DNA of 54,405 nucleotides from an uncultured Verrucomicrobiota bacterium (GTDB lineage: Bacteria > Verrucomicrobiota > Verrucomicrobiia > Verrucomicrobiales > Akkermansiaceae). Shown here piece after piece: positions 39,648 through 54,405 of the stretch. Below the pieces are notes generated by a model, which was given only the letters and a program-made list of their open reading frames with translations, was not told where the DNA came from and did no database searches. Each line of letters starts with the position of its first letter. The stretch's first letter is position 1. The stretch is taken from NCBI GenBank assembly GCA_937867415.1, contig CALMKO010000057.1:1-54405 (forward strand), given 5' to 3'. A program made the translations under genes and the position numbers.

Positions 39648-42080
39648 ATGCAAGACCCAACTCTGCTAGATCATCCCGCGCGCAGGCCGGAGCGCCGCGC
39701 GGGCGTTGTCGGGGCTTGCCTTTTGCTCACCCTCGCCATGACCCACGCCGACACCCGTCCCCTGCCCCCGCGCCAGGCTGCCCGGCCGCTGCCGCTAAGC
39801 GCCGTCCGTCTAACAGGCGGCCCGCTCAAACACGCCCAGGACCTCGACGCGCGGTATTTGTTATCACTTGAGGCCGATCGCCTGATCGCTGGCTACCGCA
39901 TCCGTGCCGGCATGGAATCCAAGGCGGCGGGCTATGGCGGTTGGGATTCGGTCGATGGAAAACAACTTACCGGCCACATCGCCGGGCATTATCTATCAGC
40001 GGTGAGCCTGATGTTCGCCACCACGGGCGACGCGGCATTCAAGCAACGCGCCGACGAACTCGTCTCGCGGATGAAGGAAGTCCATGACAAGCGCCGCAAT
40101 GGCTACCTCGGTGCGCTTGCCGATGCCGCCGGGCGCGACGGCGCGGATATTTTCGAAAATGACATCGCCAGCGGGAACATCCGCTCCGGCGGTTTCGACC
40201 TCAACGGCATGTGGGCTCCCTGGTATACACTTCACAAGACTTTCGCCGGACTGCGCGACGCCTATCGCCACTGCGGAAACAAGACCGCGCTCGAACTCGC
40301 GGTGGGCTTTGCCGCTTGGACGGAACGGGTGCTTTCCAAGTTGTCACCCGCACAGATCCAGACGATGCTCAATTGTGAGTTCGGCGGCATGAACGAGGTG
40401 ATGGTCGATCTTTTCACCGACACCGGTGACCGCCGCTGGCTGGACTTGTCCCGCAAATTCGAGCACGAGGCGATCACCACCGGACTCAAAAAACGTGAGG
40501 ACATCCTGCCAGGCACCCACGGCAACACCCAGATCCCCAAGCTGATCGGGTCGCTGGAACGCTACGCTGCCACGGGCGATGCCGCAGACCTCACAGCTTC
40601 TTCGTTTTTCTGGGATCGGGTAGTCCATCATCACAGCTATGCCACCGGTGGCCATGGCAAGGACGAGTATTTCGGCCAGCCGGACAAGTTGGCCGACCGC
40701 ATCGACGGGCGCACCGCCGAGTCATGCAACATCTATAACATGTGCAAGCTGACCCGGCGCTTGTTCGCTTATCAACCCTCTCCGGCTCTTGCCGACTTCG
40801 AGGAGCGCTCGTTGTTCAACCACGTGCTTGGCTCGATCGACCCTGCCGATGGTTCCACCTGTTATATGGTCCCCGTCGGCCGTGGCGTGGAGAGAGAGTA
40901 TGCTGACATGAAGGAAAGCTTCACCTGCTGCGTCGGAAGCGGTATGGAAAACCATGCCCTCCACGGTTCCGGTCTCTACTTCGAATCAGGCGACAAGCTA
41001 TGGGTAAACTTCTACAGCCCTTCCACCGCCGACTGGAAGTCCGCAGGAGTGAGCCTGTCCGTGGATACTGGATTTCCCATCGGCGAGACGGCCACCCTGC
41101 GGCTGAAAATGGCAGCGCCCAAGGAATTGACCTTCGCGCTGAGGCGGCCCGGTTGGACCGGCAAGGGATTTGCGATAAGCATCAACGGCCATGCTGAGAA
41201 CCTTCCTCAACCCGCCGACTCAAGCACCTTCGTCGAAATCCGCCGCCTCTGGAACGATGGCGACACCCTTGAAGTCGCCCTACCGAAACAACTTCGCATC
41301 GAACCCCTGCCGGATCATCCCGACCGCGTCGCCATCCTTTGGGGCCCGCTGGTACTTGCAGGGAAACTGGGAGAAGCTCATCGGCACGATCATTCCCCCG
41401 GCAGCCATGTCGAGGATTTGAAGTCGGTCCCGGTCTTGGTCGCTGCTGGCCGGCCGGTGGACGAGTGGCTCAAGCCGGTGGCGGGCAAGCCGGGGCTGTT
41501 CCGCACCGTCGGAGTAGGACGCGACCGCGAGGTGGAGATGCTGCCATTCTATCAACTCCATCGCGAACGCTACGCTGCATATTGGGATCTATTTACTCCC
41601 GAGGGTTGGCAGGCAAAGTCAGCCGATATCGCCGCACAGCGCGAGCGTCAGGCCCGACTGGACGCCGCCACCGTCGCCTTTTTACAACCTGGGGAAATGC
41701 AGCCGGAACGTGATTTTCACCAGCGGGGCGAAGACACCCGCCCTGACCGCGTCATGGGCCGCGCCTGCCGCCGGGGGGCCAAATGGTTTTCATTTGATCT
41801 GCCGCTGGACCCGCAAAAACCACTGGCACTCGTGGTCACCTACAACCGCGACGAATGGAGCAGGCGTTCTTTCGACATCCTCATCGACGGGGAGAAGCTC
41901 GCTTCCCAAGTGATCGAAGCTCGCGGCAAACCGGAGTTTTTCGATGTTGTGTATCCGCTCTCAGAGGCCATGGCCAAAGGTAAGGTCAAGGCAACCGTTC
42001 GTTTTCAAGCGATCGCCGGGCATGAAATCGCAGCGGTATTCGGCATCCGGGTGGTTCGCAGGGATGCGGGAGCCCCTTAG
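39648..42080 (+). CDS. GH146-like (DUF1680) beta-L-arabinofuranosidase-type enzyme
   Basis: This is an 810-residue exported glycosidase of the DUF1680 superfamily. The N-terminus has an arginine-rich stretch and a hydrophobic segment (VVGACLLLTLAMTHA, ~20-34) that fits a signal peptide. The opening PLSAVRLTGGPLKHAQDLDARYL and the order WAPWYTLHKTFAGLRDAY, NCEFGGMNEVM, TAESCNIYNM, FTCCVGSGMEN are typical of the GH146 branch. Glu358/Cys360 and Cys427/Cys428 keep the zinc and nucleophile residues. The C-terminal ~200 residues are beta-rich, like DUF4986 domains. It follows the hydroxyproline genes by 33 bases on the same strand. GH127/GH146 enzymes act on hydroxyproline-linked beta-arabinofuranosides of extensins, a chemical link between the two functions. 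Confidence 0.85.
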   Translation: MQDPTLLDHPARRPERRAGVVGACLLLTLAMTHADTRPLPPRQAARPLPLSAVRLTGGPLKHAQDLDARYLLSLEADRLIAGYRIRAGMESKAAGYGGWDSVDGKQLTGHIAGHYLSAVSLMFATTGDAAFKQRADELVSRMKEVHDKRRNGYLGALADAAGRDGADIFENDIASGNIRSGGFDLNGMWAPWYTLHKTFAGLRDAYRHCGNKTALELAVGFAAWTERVLSKLSPAQIQTMLNCEFGGMNEVMVDLFTDTGDRRWLDLSRKFEHEAITTGLKKREDILPGTHGNTQIPKLIGSLERYAATGDAADLTASSFFWDRVVHHHSYATGGHGKDEYFGQPDKLADRIDGRTAESCNIYNMCKLTRRLFAYQPSPALADFEERSLFNHVLGSIDPADGSTCYMVPVGRGVEREYADMKESFTCCVGSGMENHALHGSGLYFESGDKLWVNFYSPSTADWKSAGVSLSVDTGFPIGETATLRLKMAAPKELTFALRRPGWTGKGFAISINGHAENLPQPADSSTFVEIRRLWNDGDTLEVALPKQLRIEPLPDHPDRVAILWGPLVLAGKLGEAHRHDHSPGSHVEDLKSVPVLVAAGRPVDEWLKPVAGKPGLFRTVGVGRDREVEMLPFYQLHRERYAAYWDLFTPEGWQAKSADIAAQRERQARLDAATVAFLQPGEMQPERDFHQRGEDTRPDRVMGRACRRGAKWFSFDLPLDPQKPLALVVTYNRDEWSRRSFDILIDGEKLASQVIEARGKPEFFDVVYPLSEAMAKGKVKATVRFQAIAGHEIAAVFGIRVVRRDAGAP

Positions 42081-44144: not shown

Positions 44145-46313
44145 ATGATCGAAGGTTTGCCCGGTTTCCTGTGCGTCCGTTTCCTCACCGCTCTGGCACT
44201 GGCCGGGGCGTCATCGACGATCCGCGCCGCTGATCCGTTAGAACTGTTTGCTCCGCAAGCGACGTTTTACGCCGGGGCCATGGAAACATTCGCCAGCGTG
44301 GTGGATGGTGTGGAAACCGGGCCGGGCGGCTGGTCGGTCGCGGGCGGCACGACCAAGCCGCAGAGCCTCGTTGTCAACTGCCTCCGCCCGGTGGAAGCGG
44401 CTGAGTTGGACGTCTCATTGTTTTTCCTCGCGGGCAAGCCATTCAATCCGATGGCGGAGTTCACCCTTTCCTTCACAAACGATGAAGAGCCCTCGCTCGA
44501 GGGAAATTGGCAGCCGCTCGAAATCCTTCGTTTCAACAGCCAGGCCACCACGCTGGAGCGGATCAGCAGCTCCGGCCTGCGCGCCGCGCGGATTCCTTAC
44601 AACGTCAATGGCGGCGTGCCCGATGAGATTTACCGCATCACCGCCGTGCTTCCCGGCAGGCGGGCCACCGGTTTCCGGGTCGATACCATCCCGGTGCCTC
44701 TCACCCAGGATGGACGGCTCGTCGGCCTCAGTTGGTATGCGCCCCATGATTTCACTCTCACCGAGTTCCGGGTCGCCATCCATCAGCGGGAAACAACCAA
44801 TATCGCCCACTACCAACCGGCCCGCAGCAGTCACCCACTTTACCTGAATCCGGATCGCACCCGGCTCCGCGCCGAGGCTCTCACTGATGGTTTGCCTGCC
44901 ACCATCGCCCACCCGGGGAAGCTGCCGCCTGATAGCGGGTTTTTCTACGAAATCGATCTCGGGCGGATCTGCAAACTCGATCACATCGGGCTGCGTACCC
45001 GTGGCGATGAGCAGTTCGAGCGCTTCACTCGCGTCCAAGTCAGCCTGTTCACGACCGCCCCGGATCGTGGTGCCGCCGCCACATGGCAGGGAATGGCGCG
45101 GGCCGATGGCAAGCACCCGCCTCCAGGAGCGGTGGAAACTCTCGTTCCAGCCGATGGAAATGGGGAATTCAGCGCCCGCTACCTGCGCATCTCGTCGGAC
45201 AGTCCCCTCCCCTATTCTCCGCAATTGGCCGAGGTGGAGGTGTATGAAAGCCGCTGCCCTGAGATTGTCGCGGCAGTGGCGGATGGACGGGAAATTCCGG
45301 TGGTCGCGCCGCTGGTGATTCCTCCCGGCACGAAGCGTCTCTCGCTGCGCGTGCAAATCCCGGGGATCGGGTTGCCGCCCGGCGATTGGTTCCGCTGGCG
45401 CGTGCGGAATGACATGGGAGATTGGCGGACATCCCGCTTGTGGACCCTCGACATGGCCTGCCCGCCACCGGGGCAATCCGTCTTCGAGGCACAGGCCCTC
45501 CACAGTGACCGCCAGTGGGATGCCACGGTGCTGCGCCTGCCGATTCTGGTCCGCCAGCATTTCTGGATGTCCGGCTGGTTCCAATGGTCATCCGCACTTG
45601 TCATGGCCGGATTGGCCACAGGCACCGGCATCTTCTGGTCGCGTCGCCGCGCCGCCCGCCAGTTGACCCGCATGAAGGCGGAGGCAGCCCTCTCCACCGA
45701 ACGCGCCAGGATCGCCCGCGACATGCACGACGAAGTCGGCGGCAAGCTCGCCCGGCTTTCGCTGCTCGGTGAAATTGTCCTTCATGGTCAACAAACATCC
45801 ACCCAGGCCAGCCCCCAACTGACCGCACTGACCCGCGGCGTGCGCGAGGTGGCGGTGGAACTCGAACAGGTCATTTGGTCGCTCAGCCCGAAACACGACC
45901 TCATGGCTGACCTCGTCCGCCATATCTATCAATACGCCGAGGACTTTTTCGCGGATACTCCGGTGATCTGTCGTTTCGGGCCGATGGCCGACATTCCTCC
46001 GGATATCAAACTGCGCCCGGAACCACGCAACGCACTCTTCCGCTCCTTCAAGGAGGCCGTCGCCAACATCCTCAAACACGCACACACCAACACCGCGCAA
46101 ATCGACGTCCGCTATGACGAGGGCTTTATGGAAATCCGAGCGGCGGACAAAGGATGCGGCTTTGATTCCGCCGCTTTGAAATCATCCACCGACCGCAATG
46201 GATTGACGAACATGCATGAGCGCATGAATTCGATCGGCGGCACCTGTGCCATCCAAAGCGGGCCCTCGGGCACCACCGTCATCCTGCGCTGGAAAGTTAT
46301 AGCAGGCGGGTGA
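44145..46313 (+). CDS. Membrane histidine kinase with discoidin-like and Y_Y_Y-like sensor domains
   Basis: This is a 722-residue two-component sensor. A signal or anchor segment (~10-28) is followed by a large extracytoplasmic part. That part has a beta-sandwich (~35-210), an F5/8 type C-like domain (~215-370: FFYEIDLGRICKLDHIGLRT, ARYLRISSD, LAEVEVYES) and a Y_Y_Y-like domain (~380-470) ending in the typical ILVRQHFWMSGWFQW before the membrane helix (~481-498). The kinase is of the NarL/HisKA_3 class: phospho-accepting His528 in ERARIARDMHDEVGGKLARLS, then a HATPase (EAVANILKHAHTN, ADKGCGFD, GLTNMHERM). It probably binds a glycan outside the cytoplasm. The response regulator gene follows by 55 bases and fucosidase genes come next, so a fucosylated ligand is a reasonable guess. 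Confidence 0.9.
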   Translation: MIEGLPGFLCVRFLTALALAGASSTIRAADPLELFAPQATFYAGAMETFASVVDGVETGPGGWSVAGGTTKPQSLVVNCLRPVEAAELDVSLFFLAGKPFNPMAEFTLSFTNDEEPSLEGNWQPLEILRFNSQATTLERISSSGLRAARIPYNVNGGVPDEIYRITAVLPGRRATGFRVDTIPVPLTQDGRLVGLSWYAPHDFTLTEFRVAIHQRETTNIAHYQPARSSHPLYLNPDRTRLRAEALTDGLPATIAHPGKLPPDSGFFYEIDLGRICKLDHIGLRTRGDEQFERFTRVQVSLFTTAPDRGAAATWQGMARADGKHPPPGAVETLVPADGNGEFSARYLRISSDSPLPYSPQLAEVEVYESRCPEIVAAVADGREIPVVAPLVIPPGTKRLSLRVQIPGIGLPPGDWFRWRVRNDMGDWRTSRLWTLDMACPPPGQSVFEAQALHSDRQWDATVLRLPILVRQHFWMSGWFQWSSALVMAGLATGTGIFWSRRRAARQLTRMKAEAALSTERARIARDMHDEVGGKLARLSLLGEIVLHGQQTSTQASPQLTALTRGVREVAVELEQVIWSLSPKHDLMADLVRHIYQYAEDFFADTPVICRFGPMADIPPDIKLRPEPRNALFRSFKEAVANILKHAHTNTAQIDVRYDEGFMEIRAADKGCGFDSAALKSSTDRNGLTNMHERMNSIGGTCAIQSGPSGTTVILRWKVIAGG

Positions 46314-46368
46314 AGCAGCGATTTCCTCGCTTGCACTCCTCGGGTTGTCTGCCCCATGGTGCACACAC

Positions 46369-47004
46369 ATGAGCATCCGGGTATCCATTGTGGAAGACGA
46401 CGCCGCTTACCGCTGCATGCTCGAGACGCACCTGAACCAGTCTCCGGACGTCCGCTGCGTGAGCACTTACGGTGACCCCCGCGAGGCGCTGCGGCGATTG
46501 CCCATGGAAAAACCGGATGTGGTGTTGATGGATTTGCAGTTGCCAGGCTTGACCGGCACCGAGTGCATTGCGGCGCTGCGGGCCGAGTATCCGGGCTTGC
46601 AGGCGATCATGCTCACCGTCTTCGAGCAGGACGAACAAGTCTTCCAAGCCCTCGCCGCAGGGGCGTGCGGCTACCTCGTCAAGCGCACGCCACCCGCCCG
46701 GATTTTGGAAGCCATTCGCGAAGTGCAGCAAGGAGGCTCACCCATGTCTGCCCACATCGCACGCTGCGTCGTCGAAGCATTCCGCAAACCACCACCGCCC
46801 AAACAAGGTGAGGCGGAGGATTTCCAGTTGTCGCCACGGGAACGGGAAATTCTCGATCTCCTCGCCCAAGGACTGCTGCTCAAGGAAATCGCCCAGCATT
46901 TTTCCGTGAGTCACTCCACCGTCCAGACTCACATCGGGCGGATCTATAAAAAGCTCCATGTGCACTCACGCTCCCAGGCCGTTGCCCGCTTGAAACAACA
47001 ATGA
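46369..47004 (+). CDS. NarL/FixJ-type response regulator
   Basis: This is a 211-residue DNA-binding regulator paired with the kinase at 44145. The receiver domain (1-125) has IVEDD at 7-11, phospho-acceptor Asp55 in VVLMDLQLPG and Lys105 in GYLVKR. The LuxR-type helix-turn-helix (~148-211) contains LSPREREILDLLAQGLLLKEIAQ and VQTHIGRIYKKL. The ATG at 46369 starts the conserved fold directly; an upstream in-frame codon adds eight residues of no family similarity. Its likely target is the 25-bp palindrome 44 bases after its stop (47048-47072) and the near-identical copy at 50975-50999. Confidence 0.95.
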   Translation: MSIRVSIVEDDAAYRCMLETHLNQSPDVRCVSTYGDPREALRRLPMEKPDVVLMDLQLPGLTGTECIAALRAEYPGLQAIMLTVFEQDEQVFQALAAGACGYLVKRTPPARILEAIREVQQGGSPMSAHIARCVVEAFRKPPPPKQGEAEDFQLSPREREILDLLAQGLLLKEIAQHFSVSHSTVQTHIGRIYKKLHVHSRSQAVARLKQQ

Positions 47005-47047: not shown

Positions 47048-47072
47048 TGTCATGTGTTTGCACGACATGACA
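47048..47072. promoter_or_regulatory. 25-bp palindrome, copy 1 (TGTCATGT-N9-ACATGACA)
   Basis: Perfect 8-base arms flank the spacer GTTTGCACG. The site lies between the response regulator gene and the first fucosidase gene, 86 bases before the latter's ATG. The copy at 50975-50999 differs at one base of the 25. The length and symmetry fit a dimeric LuxR/NarL-type regulator; the binding protein is inferred. Confidence 0.7.
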
Positions 47073-47158
47073 GACAGGCGGGATTGCACGAATTTACAGG
47101 AGTGCCGCTTGCATGAGCGTTCCTGCCTGCCATCCGTCACCCAATACGCTCGCCAAAG

Positions 47159-48907
47159 ATGACTCTGCCTCGCCACTCCCGAATTCTTTCCTCTCTTGCC
47201 GCCCTCACCCTGCATTCACTTGCCCTGCCGCTTGTTTCCCCGCTGTATGCCGCCGAATCCGTCGCCGCGCCCGACCTACAATGGTGGCGCGATGGCCGCT
47301 TCGGCATGTTCATCCACTGGGGACCCGCTGCCATCGGCGGCCAGGAAATCAGTTGGTCGCGCGGTGCCATCGGACCGGCGAAATATGATAGCTTCTACAA
47401 GGAGTTCAATCCGGTGAAGTTCAATCCCGACGAGTGGGTCGCCATCGCCAAGGCGGCGGGCATGAAATACATCGTGCTCACCGCCAAACATCACGACGGC
47501 TTCATGCTCTGGCCCAGCAAGACCCGCGACTATCACATCGGCCTCACCCCCTTCAAACGTGATGTGGTCGGTGAGCTCGCCGTCGCCGCAAAAAAAGCCG
47601 ATATCCCGTTCTGCGTTTACTACTCGCCCGGCGATTGGAGCGATCCGGACTGCCGCCACCCGCAAAACAACCCGAAATACGCCGAGCGCATGCACCAGCA
47701 GATCACCGAGTTGCTCACCAACTACGGCCGCATCCCGCTCGTCTGGATCGACTTCGACGGACAACCCAGCCCGGCCCATCCACGCGAGACGGCCACCCTC
47801 ATGCGCAAGCTCCAGCCGGGCGTGCTCATCACTAACCGCCTCGAAGCCATGACCCCCGATGAATCCCACGGCCGCGTCGGCCCCTGGGGCGACTATGCCA
47901 CGCCGGAACAACAGGTCGGCGGCTACGGCGACGATGTGCCTTGGGAAACCTGCATGACCATCGCCGGCCAATGGAACTGGCGGCCGAATGATCCGGTGAA
48001 ATCGCTCGATCACTGCCTGCGCGTGCTTATCAGCACCATCGGTGGTGATGGCAACCTGCTCTTCAACGTCGGCCCGAAACCCGATGGCGAAATCGAACCG
48101 GAACAAGTCGCCCGGCTCAAGGAAATGGGGGCTTGGTTGCAGAACAACAGCGAGGCCGTCTATGGCACTCGCGGCGGCCCCTGGCATCCCACGACATCCT
48201 ACGCAGCCACCCGCACCAAGGACGCCATCTACCTCCACGTCTTCGGCCAGCCGAACATGCCCTTCAGCCTGCCAGCCCTGCCATCCAAAGTCGCCTCGGC
48301 AAAATTGTTAGATGGCACACCGGTAGAGTTCGGTCAAAGCGATCTCGCCTTCACCGTCGCCCTCCCACCCGCGAAAATGGACCCGCTGATTTCGGTGGTA
48401 AAACTCACCCTCGAGGACAACCCGCTTTCCCTCGCCGCGATCCCGCCGCTGTCCGCCACCGGTTCCTTCGCCTACCGCAAACCCGCCACCGCCTCAAGCA
48501 ACATCGCCGCCCGCTACATGCACACACCCGCCGCCGCCTTCGATGACAACCCGCGCACCTACTGGACGCCCGGCCGCGACGAGGATCTGGCGGATTCCCT
48601 CTATGGCAAGACCTTCCATTCCATCACTCCCGAACGCCCGCTCTGGCTGCGCGAAAGCTGGCTCGCAGTCGATTTGCAGGAGCCCAAAACCGTCACCCGC
48701 ATGCGCATCGGCGATGGCTGGGCCCCGGTGAAGGAATGGAAGGTGGAATACCTCAAAGACGGCACCTGGCAAGAAGCGGTCAAAGGCACCACCATCGGCG
48801 AAAAATTGCTCGATGTCACCCTGCCAAAACCCGTCACCGGCCAAAAATTCCGGCTCTCCCTCAAAGCGAACGAGCGCACCGCCATCCGCGAATGGCAGCT
48901 CTTCTGA
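47159..48907 (+). CDS. GH29-family alpha-L-fucosidase with C-terminal F5/8 type C domain (copy 1)
   Basis: This is a 582-residue exported retaining fucosidase. A signal peptide (~1-32) leads into the GH29 barrel: RFGMFIHWGP (48-57), AKHHDGF (109-115, fucose-binding histidines intact), the nucleophile Asp198 in VWIDFDG, and GDGNLLFNVGPKPDG near 295-310. A beta domain (~340-430) and a discoidin domain (~445-582: ATASSNIAARYMHTPAAAFDDN, WLAVDLQEPKTVTRMRIG) follow. It should remove terminal L-fucose from glycans in the periplasm or outside the cell. It lies directly downstream of the kinase/regulator pair and its palindromic site, and is followed by a paralogue 108 bases later. Confidence 0.93.
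   Translation: MTLPRHSRILSSLAALTLHSLALPLVSPLYAAESVAAPDLQWWRDGRFGMFIHWGPAAIGGQEISWSRGAIGPAKYDSFYKEFNPVKFNPDEWVAIAKAAGMKYIVLTAKHHDGFMLWPSKTRDYHIGLTPFKRDVVGELAVAAKKADIPFCVYYSPGDWSDPDCRHPQNNPKYAERMHQQITELLTNYGRIPLVWIDFDGQPSPAHPRETATLMRKLQPGVLITNRLEAMTPDESHGRVGPWGDYATPEQQVGGYGDDVPWETCMTIAGQWNWRPNDPVKSLDHCLRVLISTIGGDGNLLFNVGPKPDGEIEPEQVARLKEMGAWLQNNSEAVYGTRGGPWHPTTSYAATRTKDAIYLHVFGQPNMPFSLPALPSKVASAKLLDGTPVEFGQSDLAFTVALPPAKMDPLISVVKLTLEDNPLSLAAIPPLSATGSFAYRKPATASSNIAARYMHTPAAAFDDNPRTYWTPGRDEDLADSLYGKTFHSITPERPLWLRESWLAVDLQEPKTVTRMRIGDGWAPVKEWKVEYLKDGTWQEAVKGTTIGEKLLDVTLPKPVTGQKFRLSLKANERTAIREWQLF
48047..48096 (+). repeat. 50-base exact repeat shared by the two fucosidase genes
   Basis: This stretch is identical to 49910-49959 and encodes the DGNLLFNVGPKPDGEIE region of both GH29 genes. 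Many other segments of the two genes are nearly identical at DNA level, for example around 48641-48700 and 50501-50560. This points to a rather recent tandem duplication or gene conversion. Confidence 0.85.
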
Positions 48908-49015
48908 AACCGGAATTCGAAGTGGCGGAAATGGCCTTCAAGGATGGAATTCGGATTGCCGCCACTGATAAATGACATATCTAACACAATTTAATACGAT
49001 TTATTGAAATCCCTC

Positions 49016-50773
49016 ATGACTCTGAAATCAATCGCCCTCACTCTCGCACTCTCCTGTCTCCTGCCGGGCCTCCGTGCGGAAACACCCGCAGTCGCTCCGC
49101 CAGATCTCAAATGGTGGCGCGACGCCCGCTTCGGCATGTTCATCCATTGGGGGCCGGTCTCGATCACCGGCGGGGAAATCAGCTTTTCCCGCGCCAAGTC
49201 CAATCCCTACGCCCCACATGGTTTCGGTGCCACACCGGTCGATGTTTATGATAATCTCTACAAACAATTCAACCCGGTCAAATTCAATGCCGACGAATGG
49301 GTCGCCACCGCCAAGGCAGCGGGCATGAAATACATGGTGCTCACCGCCAAACATTGCGACAGCTTCCTGCTCTGGGACTCGAAGACCGATGACTATAACA
49401 TCATGAACACCCCCTTCGGCCGCGATGTGGTCAAGGAACTCTCCACCGCCGCCAACAAGGCGGGCCTCCCGTTCTGCGTGTATTTCTGCCCGGGCGATTG
49501 GAAGGACCCGGACTGCCGACACCCGGAAAACAACCCGCGCTTCGTCGAGCGCATGCACGCCCAACTCACCGAGTTACTCACCCAATACGGCAAAATCCCG
49601 CTGATCTGGTTTGATTTCGATGGCCACCCATGCCCGTCCAAGCCCGAGGAAACCGCCACCCTCGTCCGCAAACTCCAGCCGGGTGTGATCCTGACCAACC
49701 GCCTCGAAGCGATGACTCCAGACGAATCCCACGGCCACATCGGCAAATGCGGCGACTACGCCACGCCGGAACAATTCGTCGGCGGCTATGGCGACGACGT
49801 CCCCTGGGAAACCTGCATGACCATCGGCAACCAGTGGTCGTGGCGGCCGAACGATCCCATCAAACCGCTCGACCACTGCCTGCGAGTGCTCGTCGGCACC
49901 GTCGGTGGCGATGGCAACCTGCTCTTCAACGTCGGCCCGAAACCCGATGGCGAAATCGAGCCGGCACAAGTCTCCCGCCTTAAGGAAATGGGAACCTGGT
50001 TGCAGAAAAACGGTGAGTCCGTCTATGCCACCCGCGGCGGGCCATGGCTGCCCACGCCATGGTATGCCAGCACCCGCACCAAGGACGCCGCCTATCTACA
50101 GATCTTCGGCAAACCCACCATGCCGTTCAGCCTCCCTCGGCTTCCCAGCAAGGTGACCTCGGCCACCTTGTTAGATGGTACACCCGTGGAGGTGGGACAA
50201 AACGACATCGCCTTCACGCTCGCCGTGCCTGCGGAGAAGATGGACCCGTCCATCACCGTGGTGAAACTCACCTTCGAACAAAGCCCGCTTTCCCTCAGCC
50301 CCATCCCGCCTGCCTCGACCACCGGCTCGCTCGCTTACCGCAAACCTGCCGCGGCATCCAGCAGTGTTGCAGCACAATACATGCACAAGGCGGATGCCGC
50401 CTTCGATGACAACCCCCATACATTCTGGTCGCCCGGCCGCGATGAGAAAGTCGCGGATGCCATCTACGGCAAAACCTTCGCCGCCATCAAACCCGACCGC
50501 CCGCTATGGCTGCGCGAAAGCTGGCTCGCCGTCGATTTGCAGGAACCCAAAACCGTCACCCGCATGCTCATCGGCGATGGCTGGTCGCCGGTAAAGGAAT
50601 GGAAGGTGGAATACCTGAAGGATGGCAGCTGGCACGAGGCAATGAATGGCACCACCATCGGACTGAAAATGGAAGTCACCCTGCCCAAGCCGGTCACCGG
50701 CCAAAAATTCCGGCTCTCCCTCAAAGCTGACGACCGCACCGCCATCCGCGAGTGGCAGTTGTTCTCACATTGA
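49016..50773 (+). CDS. GH29-family alpha-L-fucosidase-like protein (copy 2), altered active-site motif
   Basis: This is a 585-residue exported paralogue of the gene at 47159, with the same order of GH29 barrel, beta domain and C-terminal discoidin domain. The start is the ATG at 49016 (MTLKSIALTLALSCLLPGLRA signal peptide); a TTG four codons earlier is less likely. The nucleophile Asp200 (IWFDFDG) is kept. The fucose-binding motif AKHHDGF is changed to AKHCDSF (~111-117), replacing the second histidine with cysteine and the glycine with serine. There is also an insertion of about 20 residues after SFSRAKS (~61-80) near the active-site entrance. It may therefore act on a different sugar or be inactive. 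It probably shares the transcript of copy 1. Confidence 0.9.
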   Translation: MTLKSIALTLALSCLLPGLRAETPAVAPPDLKWWRDARFGMFIHWGPVSITGGEISFSRAKSNPYAPHGFGATPVDVYDNLYKQFNPVKFNADEWVATAKAAGMKYMVLTAKHCDSFLLWDSKTDDYNIMNTPFGRDVVKELSTAANKAGLPFCVYFCPGDWKDPDCRHPENNPRFVERMHAQLTELLTQYGKIPLIWFDFDGHPCPSKPEETATLVRKLQPGVILTNRLEAMTPDESHGHIGKCGDYATPEQFVGGYGDDVPWETCMTIGNQWSWRPNDPIKPLDHCLRVLVGTVGGDGNLLFNVGPKPDGEIEPAQVSRLKEMGTWLQKNGESVYATRGGPWLPTPWYASTRTKDAAYLQIFGKPTMPFSLPRLPSKVTSATLLDGTPVEVGQNDIAFTLAVPAEKMDPSITVVKLTFEQSPLSLSPIPPASTTGSLAYRKPAAASSSVAAQYMHKADAAFDDNPHTFWSPGRDEKVADAIYGKTFAAIKPDRPLWLRESWLAVDLQEPKTVTRMLIGDGWSPVKEWKVEYLKDGSWHEAMNGTTIGLKMEVTLPKPVTGQKFRLSLKADDRTAIREWQLFSH

Positions 50774-50844
50774 TGGTCGCTGACTGTGACGGAGTGAGCC
50801 GACAAAAACGGCGCTGAGCGATGAGATCCCTACCCACCTCGAAA

Positions 50845-50903
50845 GCGCTGTAACTTCCCGCCGCGGGTTGCATGTGCCGATTCAAACCCGTAACATCCAG
50901 CGC
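50845..50903. terminator. Nested inverted repeats downstream of the fucosidase pair
   Basis: An outer stem GCGCTG/CAGCGC (50845-50850 with 50898-50903) encloses an inner stem CGGGTT/AACCCG (50864-50869 with 50885-50890). The resulting 59-base foldable element starts 71 bases after the second fucosidase stop and ends 71 bases before the next palindrome. It is probably a terminator or leader structure. The rest of the 50,774-51,036 gap holds only the palindrome. Confidence 0.4.
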
Positions 50904-50974
50904 CGTGGGTCATCATCGTCTTGGCTGGCTTGCCGCCACGGTGGCAGTGCTTTGCCACGCCCGTCCGATTTCCA

Positions 50975-50999
50975 TGTCATGTGTTTACACGACATGACA
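50975..50999. promoter_or_regulatory. 25-bp palindrome, copy 2 (TGTCATGT-N9-ACATGACA)
   Basis: Perfect 8-base arms flank the spacer GTTTACACG. It matches copy 1 (47048-47072) at 24 of 25 bases. It lies 37 bases before the ATG of the surface-protein gene at 51037, so it is placed as a promoter-proximal control site. Confidence 0.7.
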
Positions 51000-51036: not shown

Positions 51037-53301
51037 ATGAGATCTCCATCCCTGCCCCTTCCCATCCTGCTCGTCGCTCTTGGCGGCGGGAATCTCCTTC
51101 ATGCCACTCCCACCATCGCCGGTGGCAATGGTAGTTTTGAAACCAACACCCGGGGCACCGCTGCGTTTGGAGGTGGTTTCGGACAAATCTGGTATCTGAA
51201 TCCATTGGCAGCGAATACCAGTGGAGTAGATATTCCCGGATGGACGCTCTTCGCCCCAGGAGGGACCTTGCCGCCCAATACCAACACCGCATGGCTCATG
51301 GGAGACAATACCTACGGAGCCCCATCGGATGGAATCTATCAGATCAATGTCGAGGGCGGTCCTGACTGGTGGCTGCGCGCCTCCTTGGACAACCTCACCA
51401 TTGGCAGCACTTACTCCGTGTCATTCCAGTCCCGCAGACGGCAAGGCAGTGGCAGCGGCACCTTTGATGTGTTTGTGGATACCGCCACTCCCACCCAGGT
51501 GAGCCCGAGTCCCGCCTCCACCAGCTGGGCTCCACAATCCCTGACCTTCGTCGCCGAAGCCGCCACCCACACCCTGACCATTTCCAACACGGACAACCCC
51601 GCCAACAACGGCTTCATGGTGGACCAGTTTTCCATCGCCGAGGAAACTTGGGTGGCCGGGGACGGCGTCTGGACCGCGGGTGACGGCAACTGGAATACCG
51701 CCACCAACTGGCAAAGCAACACCATCGCCCAAGGCGGCGACCGATCCGCCAACTTCAACGGCCTCACCCCCGTCACCGCCACGGTCGATGTCAACCGCCC
51801 GATCGGCGCGCTGCTTTTCTCCGGTGCCAATCACACACTGGCCGCTGGCATCGGCAGTCTCACCTTGGATGGCGGCGCCCTTTTCGCCACCCCTTCCGTC
51901 ACCGTGGCCAATGGCATCACTGCGACCATCGCTGCCACGCTCAATGGCAACGAGGGCCTGCTCAAGGACGGCGCGGGCACCCTGGTGCTTTCCGGGAACA
52001 ACACCTATTCCGGCGGGACGACGGTTAGCATCGGGACTCTGAAACTGGAACTTGGTCCCCGAAGCGGAAACCCTCCGTTCGGTAGTTTTTCAGTCGATAG
52101 TGGCGCAACCCTGAATCTCGATAATACCAACACGGTGGTCGGCAGTTATTACCCACAAAGCTTTGTCTTATCCGGTGAAGGCACGCTGACGAAAACCAAC
52201 ACCGGCTCCATCGACTTGTGGACCGGATCCAATCTAACCGGCTTCACCGGCACCGTGAATGTCCAGCAGGGATCACTAAGGGTCAATAACATCGGCACGG
52301 CTGCCAACATGGCGCAGGCGACCTTGGAGATCGCCGCCGGAGCCACCTTCGACGTCCGCTACAACGCCCGGCTCTCCGTGGACAAACTCACCGGCTCGGG
52401 AATTCTCGATCAAAGCTCCAACTTCGGCGGTGGACTGGGTGCCGTAACCATCGGTGCAAATCATGGATCCAGCACCTTCAACGGATCCATCCGTAACACC
52501 AGCGGCGTGGCGCTTCCCGTCACCAAATCCGGCACCGGCACATTCACCCTCGCAGGCATCAACACCTACACCGGCAACACCACCATCAATGATGGCACGC
52601 TCATACTCGCCGATGACGCCCGACTGACCTTCGTGGTCACCCATAGCAGTCAGAACACCATCGGCGGCAGCGGAACCGCCACCTTGAAGGGCGACTTCCT
52701 CATCAATACCACCGCAGTCACCGGAGCCACCGCCGGCACCTGGTTACTGGTCGATATCGCAAGCCTCGCCCCCGCCTCTTCCTTTGATGATGCCACCTTC
52801 ACGGTCATCGACTTCGTGGACCCGGAAAACGACGGCATCTGGACCATGACCGACGCCAAGGGCAATTGGGCATTCTCCGAAGCCACCGGCACACTCAGCC
52901 TCGCAGTCGGCAGCGACTACGATGACTGGGGTGCCACCTATGGACTTACCACCGGTTCCGAAGGTGGCGATCTCGATACCGATGGTCTCAGCAACTTCGA
53001 GGAATATGCATTCGGACTGCTCCCGAACAGTGGTTCATCCGTGAATCCGATCATTTCGCAGTTCAATAAAACCACCGGTCAGTTCACTTATCAGCGCCGG
53101 CTCCAGTCCAACACCGATATCAACTACTCGGTTCGAAGTTCGACCACCCTCGCCACCAACGAGTGGAACAATCTGGTAAAAGACACCGACTACACCGAGT
53201 CGCTCTCGGCAGCGGGTGACATCGAGACCGTCACCATCACCCTCACCCCGGTCCCCACCTCCTCCAAGCTTTTCATTCAAATCAAAGCCGAAGCACCCTG
53301 A
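51037..53301 (+). CDS. Surface protein with autotransporter-type beta-strand repeats
   Basis: This is a 754-residue exported protein. A signal peptide (~1-23) is followed by a jelly-roll module (~25-205: GGNGSFETNTRGTA, GIYQINVEGGPDWWLRASL, HTLTISNTDNP) nearly the same as most of the protein at 53329. The middle (~210-610) carries autotransporter-associated beta-strand repeats (LKDGAGTLVLSGNNTYSGGT, TKSGTGTFTLAGINTYTGNT). The end (~630-754) is the module with GDLDTDGLSNFEEYAFGLLP and YSVRSSTTL also found in the proteins at 1532 and 18719. There is no PEP-CTERM tail and no autotransporter barrel, so its surface attachment is unexplained. It lies 37 bases after a palindrome shared with the fucosidase promoter, and the short PEP-CTERM gene follows 27 bases later. 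Confidence 0.82.
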   Translation: MRSPSLPLPILLVALGGGNLLHATPTIAGGNGSFETNTRGTAAFGGGFGQIWYLNPLAANTSGVDIPGWTLFAPGGTLPPNTNTAWLMGDNTYGAPSDGIYQINVEGGPDWWLRASLDNLTIGSTYSVSFQSRRRQGSGSGTFDVFVDTATPTQVSPSPASTSWAPQSLTFVAEAATHTLTISNTDNPANNGFMVDQFSIAEETWVAGDGVWTAGDGNWNTATNWQSNTIAQGGDRSANFNGLTPVTATVDVNRPIGALLFSGANHTLAAGIGSLTLDGGALFATPSVTVANGITATIAATLNGNEGLLKDGAGTLVLSGNNTYSGGTTVSIGTLKLELGPRSGNPPFGSFSVDSGATLNLDNTNTVVGSYYPQSFVLSGEGTLTKTNTGSIDLWTGSNLTGFTGTVNVQQGSLRVNNIGTAANMAQATLEIAAGATFDVRYNARLSVDKLTGSGILDQSSNFGGGLGAVTIGANHGSSTFNGSIRNTSGVALPVTKSGTGTFTLAGINTYTGNTTINDGTLILADDARLTFVVTHSSQNTIGGSGTATLKGDFLINTTAVTGATAGTWLLVDIASLAPASSFDDATFTVIDFVDPENDGIWTMTDAKGNWAFSEATGTLSLAVGSDYDDWGATYGLTTGSEGGDLDTDGLSNFEEYAFGLLPNSGSSVNPIISQFNKTTGQFTYQRRLQSNTDINYSVRSSTTLATNEWNNLVKDTDYTESLSAAGDIETVTITLTPVPTSSKLFIQIKAEAP

Positions 53302-53328
53302 TACCCTGCCACCTCTCAAAACAATCCC

Positions 53329-54003
53329 ATGAAAATCAACCATATCATCCTACCCGTCCTTCTTTGTCTCACCGGCAGCGCTACCGCCGCCATCACCATC
53401 GCCGGTGGAAATGGAAGCTTTGAAACCAATACTCGTGGCACCGCCACCTTCACAGAAACTTGGTATCTGAACCCGCAGGCGGGTAGCGGTATTCACGCCA
53501 CCCAGTGGTCAAGCATCACTGGCTGGACACTCACCGCACCCGGCGGCGGCACCGCCAATAGCGCCACCGCGTGGCTCATGACAGGCAACACTTTTGGTGG
53601 CTCCGCTTCAGACGGGAACTATCATATCAACGTCGAAGGCGGGCCAAACTGGTGGCTGAGCACCAGTATCAGTGGACTCACGGTTGGCAACAACTACACC
53701 GTCTTTTTCGATGCTAAACAACGTTCCGGCGGTTCAGGCAACTTCGATGTTTTCGTCAACACCACCGTTCCTACAGGGGGATTCAACATCACTCCGACTT
53801 CAAGCTGGGCACAACAAAGCTTCACGTTCACTGCGCAGCTTACCAGCCACACCCTGACGATTTCGAATGTGGACCACTCGACCTATGTTGAAACACTTGT
53901 CAACAACGGTGTGATGGTGGACAATTTCAGCGTCGTCCCCGAGCCATCCGCCGCACTCTTGGGCGGGCTTGGTCTGCTCGCACTGCTGCGCCGCCGCCGT
54001 TGA
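53329..54003 (+). CDS. PEP-CTERM sorting-domain protein
   Basis: This is a 224-residue exported protein with a signal peptide (~1-20: HIILPVLLCLTGSATAA), a jelly-roll module (~21-200), and a C-terminal sorting signal: VPEPSAALLG, a short hydrophobic helix, and RRRR. Such tails are processed by exosortase and direct proteins to the surface or matrix; no exosortase gene is in this window. The jelly-roll module closely matches residues ~25-205 of the preceding protein (GGNGSFETNTRGTA, YHINVEGGPNWWL, SHTLTISNVD). The two genes are 27 bases apart and probably co-transcribed. The ligand of the module is unknown. Confidence 0.92.
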   Translation: MKINHIILPVLLCLTGSATAAITIAGGNGSFETNTRGTATFTETWYLNPQAGSGIHATQWSSITGWTLTAPGGGTANSATAWLMTGNTFGGSASDGNYHINVEGGPNWWLSTSISGLTVGNNYTVFFDAKQRSGGSGNFDVFVNTTVPTGGFNITPTSSWAQQSFTFTAQLTSHTLTISNVDHSTYVETLVNNGVMVDNFSVVPEPSAALLGGLGLLALLRRRR

Positions 54004-54115: not shown

Positions 54116-54140
54116 TGCCGCATGTTGATGCGACATGACA
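54116..54140. promoter_or_regulatory. Degenerate third copy of the palindromic site
   Basis: The right half, CGACATGACA (54131-54140), is identical to the right half of copies 1 and 2. The left half keeps only CATGT, with a spacer two bases shorter. It may be a weak site for the same regulator controlling a gene that runs off the window end, or a chance match. Confidence 0.35.
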
Positions 54141-54405
54141 CAGCCAGCGTTTTTTCCGAGGTGTAAGCACGGTGTTCGTTTACGCGCAGCGGCATCTCCA
54201 CAGAATCCCGCCCCTCCAATGGTTCCATAGCCAGTCCCCACGCGGACCAGACCGGCCTGCTTTCCCCGCCTCCTACACGGTGGCGCATCCGTTTGGCAGG
54301 ACTCCGATTCAACGCCGCGGAACCGGTGTGCTTGAAACGGGTTTTGATGGAACTCCCGCCGCGAATGCTTCCCGCATTTTCACCGATGCCGACCCCATCA
54401 CCATC
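54141..54405 (+). other. Unresolved end of window, possibly the start of another gene
   Basis: From a GTG at 54172 one plus-strand frame stays open to the window end (78 codons, ending GFDGTPAANASRIFTDADPI). An overlapping plus-strand frame is also open over much of this stretch, and neither matches a family I know. It could be the N-terminal part of a gene under the half-site at 54116-54140, or non-coding. Confidence 0.2.

Follow-up and report, generated by a model that had tools for sequence, protein, structure and literature searches.

In this report we focused on two near-identical DNA dyads in a 54,405-nucleotide stretch (the window) from an uncultured bacterium of the Akkermansiaceae (Verrucomicrobiota), contig CALMKO010000057.1 of GenBank assembly GCA_937867415.1, where they stand next to the genes of a sensor histidine kinase and a NarL-type response regulator. 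Our principal finding is that the adjacent kinase/regulator pair probably uses these dyads as its operator and as a class II activation site, and would thereby switch on both operons that follow, one encoding two alpha-L-fucosidases of glycoside hydrolase (GH) family 29 and the other two surface proteins. The argument draws on gene distances, on counts of the dyad in related genomes and on sequence comparisons of regulators, which show that, as far as comparison was possible, the window core of the dyad is shared by regulators with a similar DNA-binding domain.

Two candidate operators next to a kinase/regulator pair

The window is contig C57 of a genome of 4,898,035 bases in 470 contigs; C-numbers below denote contigs of this genome, G-numbers same-genus genomes, and L-numbers loci examined. 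An initial annotation had described two near-identical copies of a 25-bp palindrome in promoter-proximal positions and tied them to the neighboring kinase and regulator genes, an idea that proved largely right, with corrections given below. Its coordinates and degree of identity are borne out: the copies, at 47048-47072 and 50975-50999 on the forward strand, share 24 of 25 bases, each has all 16 specified bases, and they differ solely at 47060 (G) versus 50987 (A). The placement is likewise supported by gene distances and by the comparison with genome G078 (see below). The NarL-type regulator gene spans 46345-47004, and copy 1 begins 44 bp past its last base; from the end of copy 1 it is 87 bp to the ATG of the first GH29 gene (47159), and from the end of copy 2 it is 38 bp to that of a gene for a PATR (passenger-associated transport repeat) protein (51037).

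These two copies stand out against the rest of the genome. Searching the window with up to three mismatches gave three matches, the two copies themselves plus one that overlaps copy 2 at an offset, while dinucleotide-shuffled windows gave a mean of 0.12 and reached three in 0 of 100 shuffles. Genome-wide, the two copies are the only matches without mismatch, and the other matches listed carry three mismatches. When the 20-bp core form was searched with up to two mismatches, both copies matched exactly and six further places matched with two mismatches (one for the reversed control). The window core, ATGT, thus occurs exactly twice in the 4.9-Mb genome, both times in front of genes, which answers the concern that the palindrome might be a general repeat and does not fit a repetitive palindromic element of the REP or MITE kind. 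Because copy 1 stands just behind the regulator gene, where dyads can be terminators, we considered whether the palindrome is a terminator, an RNA hairpin or a mobile palindromic repeat, and rejected this as highly improbable: no T-run follows copy 1, copy 2 precedes another gene and is not behind the regulator, the core has only two genomic copies yet recurs behind a regulator with a matched helix-turn-helix (HTH) domain in G078, and at some divergent gene pairs (G002, G012, and G024; G006 C340; G019 C48) TGACA or TGACG stands on both sides of a related dyad.

A dyad frame shared by related genomes

One correction concerns the unit itself. The window sites and sites on contigs C56 and C311 of the same genome have in common a dyad of 20 bp, TGTC-N12-GACA, with TGACA directly after it. 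On C56, TGTCGCATACTTATGCGACATGACA and TGTCGCATACTCATGCGACATGACA precede two PATR genes, and on C311, TGTCCCATAATTTGGTGACATGACA lies 31 bp behind another kinase/regulator pair. The apparent 25-bp palindrome arises because the window core is ATGT, by which the left arm TGTCATGT matches by chance the right arm ACATGACA, itself GACA plus TGACA; the full 8-base left arm is found in only 3 of 47 distinct sites, and we therefore replaced the palindrome with the 20-bp dyad and a –35-like TGACA. In this parse, operator copy 1 is the dyad TGTCATGT-GTTT-GCACGACA at 47048-47067, adjoined by TGACA at 47068-47072 (ATGACA, 47067-47072), and operator copy 2 is TGTCATGT-GTTT-ACACGACA at 50975-50994, adjoined by TGACA at 50995-50999, the proposed –35 element of the surface-protein operon. 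TGACA resembles TTGACA, and a dyad adjoining it would occupy a class II position.

The frame is widespread in the genus. Of 73 same-genus genomes, 40 contain the exact pattern TGTC-N12-GACATGACA, with 81 matches in total, while the reversed pattern has none in all 73; among 145 genomes drawn from the family, the window genome included, the pattern is present in 31 and its reverse in one. The inner positions, which the pattern leaves free, are paired at three or more of four places in 23 of the 47 distinct 20-mers, whereas about 5% would be expected at equal base frequencies. The 81 sites split into 46 of a single TGTCCCA class, mostly driving a small RNA, and 35 with many cores. Since 14 of the 35 were flagged within a called open reading frame (ORF) and nine have at most one of four inner pairs, some of them, for example those of the TGTCCTAC type, are probably coding-sequence or chance matches. 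Many of the three-mismatch matches in relatives also resemble chance matches by eye.

Some exact sites lie behind regulator genes, most of these being of the TGTCCCA class. Counted over loci some of which are only 3 kb long, 33 of the 81 lie within 420 bp behind such a gene and 23 of these within 60 bp, the TGTCCCA class supplying 27 and 20 of them, respectively. In a set of loci picked by regulator homology, to which the window, L006, and L078 were added on account of the motif, 7 of 37 regulator genes are followed within 150 bp by a dyad with [TA]GAC[AG] after it, as are 4 of the 223 remaining ORFs (p = 1.5e-4 by Fisher's test). In a partly overlapping set of 96 loci (80 named and 16 from the own genome), TGTC..GACA dyads number 5 in 26 kb near the regulator stop versus 12 in 1466 kb elsewhere (0.19 versus 0.008 per kb, about 23-fold), and three permuted patterns gave none near the stop. 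An untargeted search for dyads around regulator loci gave too much noise to be used alone.

The TGTCCCA class offers a view of how the dyad is positioned relative to a transcript. Here, a regulator of the C311 class is associated with an operator (TGTCCCA and variants) before an RNA of ~70-90 nt in which a linker joins the 5' hairpin GAGGGGAGAGGTCCCC to an intrinsic terminator. The RNA stands in one to three tandem copies directly behind the NarL-type regulator and the operator (L006:4601-4683 on C311, and L264, L254, L260, L262, L252, and others), and its model matches 37 of the 73 same-genus genomes at E ≤ 1e-4, with no Rfam match in five loci. Compensatory changes affect 8 of 16 consensus pairs, all in the terminator stem; the 5' hairpin shows no covariation and is supported only by its conservation. 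An exact operator lies upstream of 46 of the 60 matches to the RNA model, and for 45 of them the RNA begins 29-30 nt after TGACA, a fixed spacing that is expected if TGACA is a –35 box.

The core of the proposed operator follows the DNA-binding domain

The comparison with G078 is the most informative for assigning the window core to a regulator. Conservation of the core in genomes without a matching regulator is not what was seen, since G078, its only other carrier among the 73 same-genus genomes, has a regulator with a matched HTH 49 bp before it: there, TGTCATGTGTTTGCATGACATGACA follows the regulator gene and precedes a PATR gene. Relative to the window regulator, that of G078 is identical at 71 of 151 positions in receiver and linker and at 50 of 58 in the HTH, with the same core. 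The regulators G019:C245 and G075:C165 show the opposite pattern, with 94 and 92 of 143 positions identical in the receiver, 26 of 58 in the HTH, and another core, TGCCGCCA. The receiver of G019:C245 is the closest to that of the window among 24 regulators that we each paired with the nearest plausible operator, a pairing made by choice for C56, C41, G019:C95, G075:C211, and G075:C168, where the regulator shares its cluster with the operator without being immediately followed by it.

Across this set, recognition helices and cores recur together. The helix HSTVQTHIGRIYKKL pairs with TGTCATGT (window and G078), VSLGTVRTYI with TGTCCGAT or TGTCAGAT (G019, G075, and G091), ISYWTVQ with GTCCCTT (L127 and G019:C180), and VSVNTL with TGTCGCAT (C56 of the own genome and G075). 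Over the 24 pairs, similarity of recognition helices correlates with similarity of operators (Mantel r = 0.43, reached by 0 of 5000 permutations).

Is the window site used by another of the NarL-type paralogues, perhaps with overlapping specificity? The regulator has 20 matches in its own genome at E ≤ 1e-8, itself included, their operator frames are shared and their cores lie a few bases apart, and C391 and C56 are an exception to the pairing in that their operators are alike (0.88) and their helices unlike (0.41). Nonetheless, the same core behind the HTH-matched regulator of G078, at 49 bp as against 44 bp in the window, makes such use by a paralogue rather improbable.

Proposed mechanism and its weighing

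The reading that we favor, activation by the adjacent pair, can be laid out as follows; we infer binding, phosphotransfer, the direction of activation, the ligand, and co-expression. An extracellular cue would be detected by the sensor kinase (44145-46313), a fragment of a fucose-containing glycan being the most likely one and an obvious guess because of the GH29 enzymes in the regulon. The kinase would phosphorylate the regulator (46345-47004), a dimer of which would bind the 20-bp dyad through an outer frame common to paralogues (TGTC...GACA) and an inner half-site, ATGT, that is regulator specific. From a position touching the –35 box, the bound dimer would recruit RNA polymerase, as in class II activation, and the two operons, the GH29 pair (47159-50773) and the PATR and PEP-CTERM genes (51037-54003), would be switched on jointly.

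Several findings weigh against this reading. Of the 35 exact sites that are not of the TGTCCCA class, only 6 are found up to 420 bp behind a regulator, 3 of them at no more than 60 bp, and 30 of the 37 regulator genes have no such dyad directly behind them. Within the own genome, five other regulators are accompanied by a sensor kinase like that of the window, and four of them (C30, C21, C263, and C41) lack a dyad within 150 bp, although in C41 a dyad, CATCGCATGAACATGCGATG, stands before the kinase rather than behind the regulator. At the promoters, a flank-side test for the –35 box was borderline (counts 3, 4, 1, and 18 over 26 sites; Fisher p = 0.047), no clear –10 box was seen at either window promoter when the sequence was read by eye, and the start site expected for copy 2 (~51029) is only ~8 nt before the ATG, the last two points each counting slightly against the case; the inner positions of copy 1 are paired at two of four places. 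The association of helix and operator is modest when examined more strictly: helix against core alone gives r = 0.36, which falls to a partial r of 0.16 with the receiver controlled (reached by 120 of 5000 permutations), and without the TGTCCCA class r is 0.27 (31 of 5000) or 0.22 with the receiver controlled (96 of 5000). The extracytoplasmic glycan sensor that had been proposed is not borne out either, since the sensor region has only a sub-threshold F5/8-type-C match (E = 0.064) and single-sequence AlphaFold gave no usable fold for it (mean predicted local distance difference test score, 32.9). Finally, the genes scanned behind the G078 operator encode PATR and DUF5703 proteins, with no GH29 among them, and Pfam finds no PEP-CTERM domain in a small protein encoded there; therefore, neither GH29 nor PEP-CTERM is a proven conserved part of the regulon, and what is kept in G078 is the PATR gene.

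The promoter architecture also bears on the sign of regulation. If the adjacent regulator bound the dyad as a repressor or dual regulator, the –35 box would be covered rather than served, and a dyad touching that box suits occlusion too. We consider this unlikely on three grounds. NarL/LuxR-type regulators bound just upstream of –35 are usually activators, the absence of a clear –10 element, as at the window promoters, is common in activator-dependent promoters, and the fixed operator-to-RNA spacing of the sister class is needed for activation but not for repression.

A third site and a probable second regulon

A degenerate copy of the palindrome had been noted near 54116, and a site is indeed present there, at 54116-54140 on the forward strand (TGCCGCATGTTGATGCGACATGACA, parsed as TGCCGCAT-N4-ATGCGACA with TGACA), but its core is GCAT rather than the ATGT of the two window copies, which makes it an operator of another class, and we rejected it as part of the same regulon. 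It precedes the start of a PATR-type gene (54165-54405, forward strand, start approximate) that is cut by the contig end and frameshifted near its start, two frames carrying consecutive similarity pieces, and that resembles the PATR gene at C56:38994. The TGTCGCAT class has eight places with zero or one mismatch in the own genome. They precede a GH78 gene (C56:8466), GH95 genes (C343:5065 and C56:27025), PATR genes (C56:38868 and C56:41678), and a PATR-like remnant recognized by eye (C281:629); the remaining two are the window site and C281:48, at a contig start. For C56:27025, we place the GH95 start behind the site because the longest ORF, which starts before it, exceeds the C343 protein by 52 amino acids.

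A regulator gene on C56 lies amid these sites, at most ~10 kb from GH106 and GH97 genes, and in G075 a regulator whose helix is almost that of C56 has TGTCGCAT 124 bp behind it. We therefore assign the 54116 site to the C56 regulator, to whose regulon, and not to that of the window regulator, it probably belongs by its core class, so that the window would hold parts of two regulons. The single compact regulon proposed initially remains the probable reading for the kinase/regulator, the fucosidases, and the two surface proteins, whereas the site at 54116 is of another paralogue's class. Behind regulators with an operator of the TGCCGCCA type (L222:42-2435 in G019:C245 and L224:10063-13326 in G075:C165) come proteins with Ig-like (Big_3_5) and invasin-like (Invasin_D3 and Big_1) repeats rather than PATR; therefore, "surface protein" seems to be a broader category than PATR.

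Relation to known systems

The geometry of the window operators recalls the lux box of LuxR-type regulators, which is 20 bp long and overlaps the –35 box. Both are 20-bp dyads at a –35 or –35-like box that go with a GerE-type HTH. They differ in that the window has a two-component regulator, and in that the outer frame is common to paralogues while the core varies.

Kinase/regulator control of PEP-CTERM genes has a precedent in Proteobacteria, where Haft et al. 2006 (PMC1569441) describe a PrsK/PrsR pair and a conserved motif upstream of PEP-CTERM genes, a system for which RpoN dependence is described in a later paper (PMC9850573). Haft et al. list 65 PEP-CTERM proteins for Verrucomicrobium spinosum with no PrsK/PrsR in the table, state that further regulatory proteins and motifs are still to be found, and leave PEP-CTERM regulation outside Proteobacteria open. 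The likeness lies in a kinase/regulator pair with a DNA motif before PEP-CTERM genes; the difference is that PrsR is an NtrC-type regulator acting at a sigma-54 promoter, whereas the window, from a member of the Verrucomicrobiota, has a NarL-type regulator, a dyad against a –35-like box, and glycosidases in the regulon. Pfam finds a receiver, GerE, and overlapping HTH families in the window regulator and no sigma-54 interaction domain, and it is thus not of PrsR type.

Two other systems invite comparison. Hybrid two-component systems of Bacteroides control polysaccharide-utilization genes (PMC11253607) and resemble the window in placing such genes under a sensor kinase and regulator, but they are single proteins with an AraC-type domain, while the window has two proteins and a GerE/NarL-type domain and so does not belong with them. 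In the GacS/GacA system, a palindromic upstream sequence, a potential GacA site, precedes the small-RNA genes RsmX/Y/Z (PMC2375449), much as the TGTCCCA class has a dyad before a small RNA. The window operators, in contrast, precede protein genes, and the sister-class RNA has no counterpart in Rfam for the five loci. Published work describes Verrucomicrobiota as having a wealth of fucosidases and rhamnosidases and as feeding on polysaccharides rich in methyl pentoses (PMC5615132 and PMC8857213), with GH29, GH78, GH95, and GH106 abundant in freshwater Verrucomicrobia (PMC5615132).

That no described system has this composition, as had been suggested, holds in part. The layout is not a one-off, since similar clusters recur on C391 and C30 and the genome holds the 20 regulator matches, but a literature search, largely without subscription papers, turned up no account of an operator or regulon of this sort in Verrucomicrobiota, nor of how fucosidase or rhamnosidase genes are switched there. 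Therefore, within the literature covered, control of PEP-CTERM genes and of polysaccharide utilization by kinase/regulator pairs is known, and an operator family with a NarL-type regulator would be new. We tentatively propose, as an idea with a somewhat less than even chance of holding, that Verrucomicrobiota use an insulated "operator code": NarL-type regulators would share the frame TGTC-N12-GACA against –35, four inner half-site bases and the recognition helix would diversify together, and each regulator would own private glycosidase and surface-protein promoters, while the most widespread member found would drive a small RNA that links sugar-specific circuits to a more global one. If this were true, swapping the core or the HTH alone would rewire a circuit. 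The operator family would also be readable, in that predicted regulator-operator pairs could be used for regulon prediction from genomes, and the paralogue series is suited to asking how parallel two-component circuits avoid cross-talk at DNA.

Genes of the window and additional observations

Nine window proteins were scanned with Pfam; the genes described here are on the forward strand. The sensor histidine kinase (44145-46313) has an N-terminal sensor of ~450 amino acids followed by HisKA_3 (E = 4.2e-9) and HATPase_c (E = 1.7e-7) domains, and is 47% identical to the G078 kinase; relatives of its sensor occur in five further places in the genome (C263, C30, C21, C41, and C391) and in G078. 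The response regulator (46345-47004), the proposed operator binder, has a Response_reg domain (E = 9e-23) with a conserved Asp and a GerE HTH (E = 2.9e-18), and with the adjacent HisKA_3 kinase it has the features of a NarL/FixJ-type two-component system. Its D63, which we take to be the phospho-acceptor, is invariant in eight paralogues. The solved structures scoring best against it are VraR and then NarL, and its best matches in named genomes are mostly from Akkermansiaceae and other Verrucomicrobiota metagenome-assembled genomes, with some labeled otherwise.

The first GH29 alpha-L-fucosidase (47159-48907; Alpha_L_fucos, E = 4.1e-79) carries an F5/8-type-C domain and, by eye, a signal-peptide-like N terminus; the second (49004-50773) is 72% identical to it and is a tandem duplicate. 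The PATR beta-strand protein (51037-53301; PATR, E = 4.2e-17), taken here as a surface protein, did not match PEP-CTERM in the Pfam scan and is related to the G078 PATR protein whose gene follows the same core. The PEP-CTERM surface protein (53329-54003; PF07589, 22.0 bits versus a gathering score of 20.7) is encoded 27 bp past the PATR gene, without an operator of its own, and with two exosortase-family genes in the genome it fits the PEP-CTERM/exosortase pattern. No SusC/SusD-type match was found among the nine proteins. A GH127-type glycosidase with DUF4986 and DUF6805 domains (39648-42080) is encoded ~2 kb upstream of the kinase, with an M24 peptidase gene between.

Elsewhere in the genome, C391 (L100 6197-16703) has a kinase-regulator-surface-protein-glycosidase cluster with PATR above the cut-off, a sub-threshold PEP-CTERM match, and an operator, TGTCGCAATCATTGCGACA with AGACA, 9 bp behind the regulator; its sensor kinase reads as two ORFs (L100 6197-7045 and 7139-8326), as though divided by a frameshift or an assembly error. 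A similar cluster on C30 (L098 2134-12104) has a sub-threshold PATR match and GH106, with no PEP-CTERM match and no operator found behind the regulator.

Some further features of the operators were noted. In many operator classes the arms are symmetric, yet by eye the dyad center is often a TTT that lies on the same strand as the downstream gene (GTTT, ATTT, or CTTT). At L088:9644, L089:5863, and L096:1669 (G002, G012, and G024), TGTCA-TGTGACGCAAATACGTCACA-TGACA forms a 30-bp near-symmetric site with a –35-like box at either end; the divergent genes that flank it code, judging by eye, for a sugar-phosphate isomerase-like protein and for a cytochrome protein of planctomycete type. A second operator-like form, approximately ACCACTCATTTGAGTGG followed by a GACA-containing stretch, lies behind regulators with other helices at L184, L186, L235, and L236.

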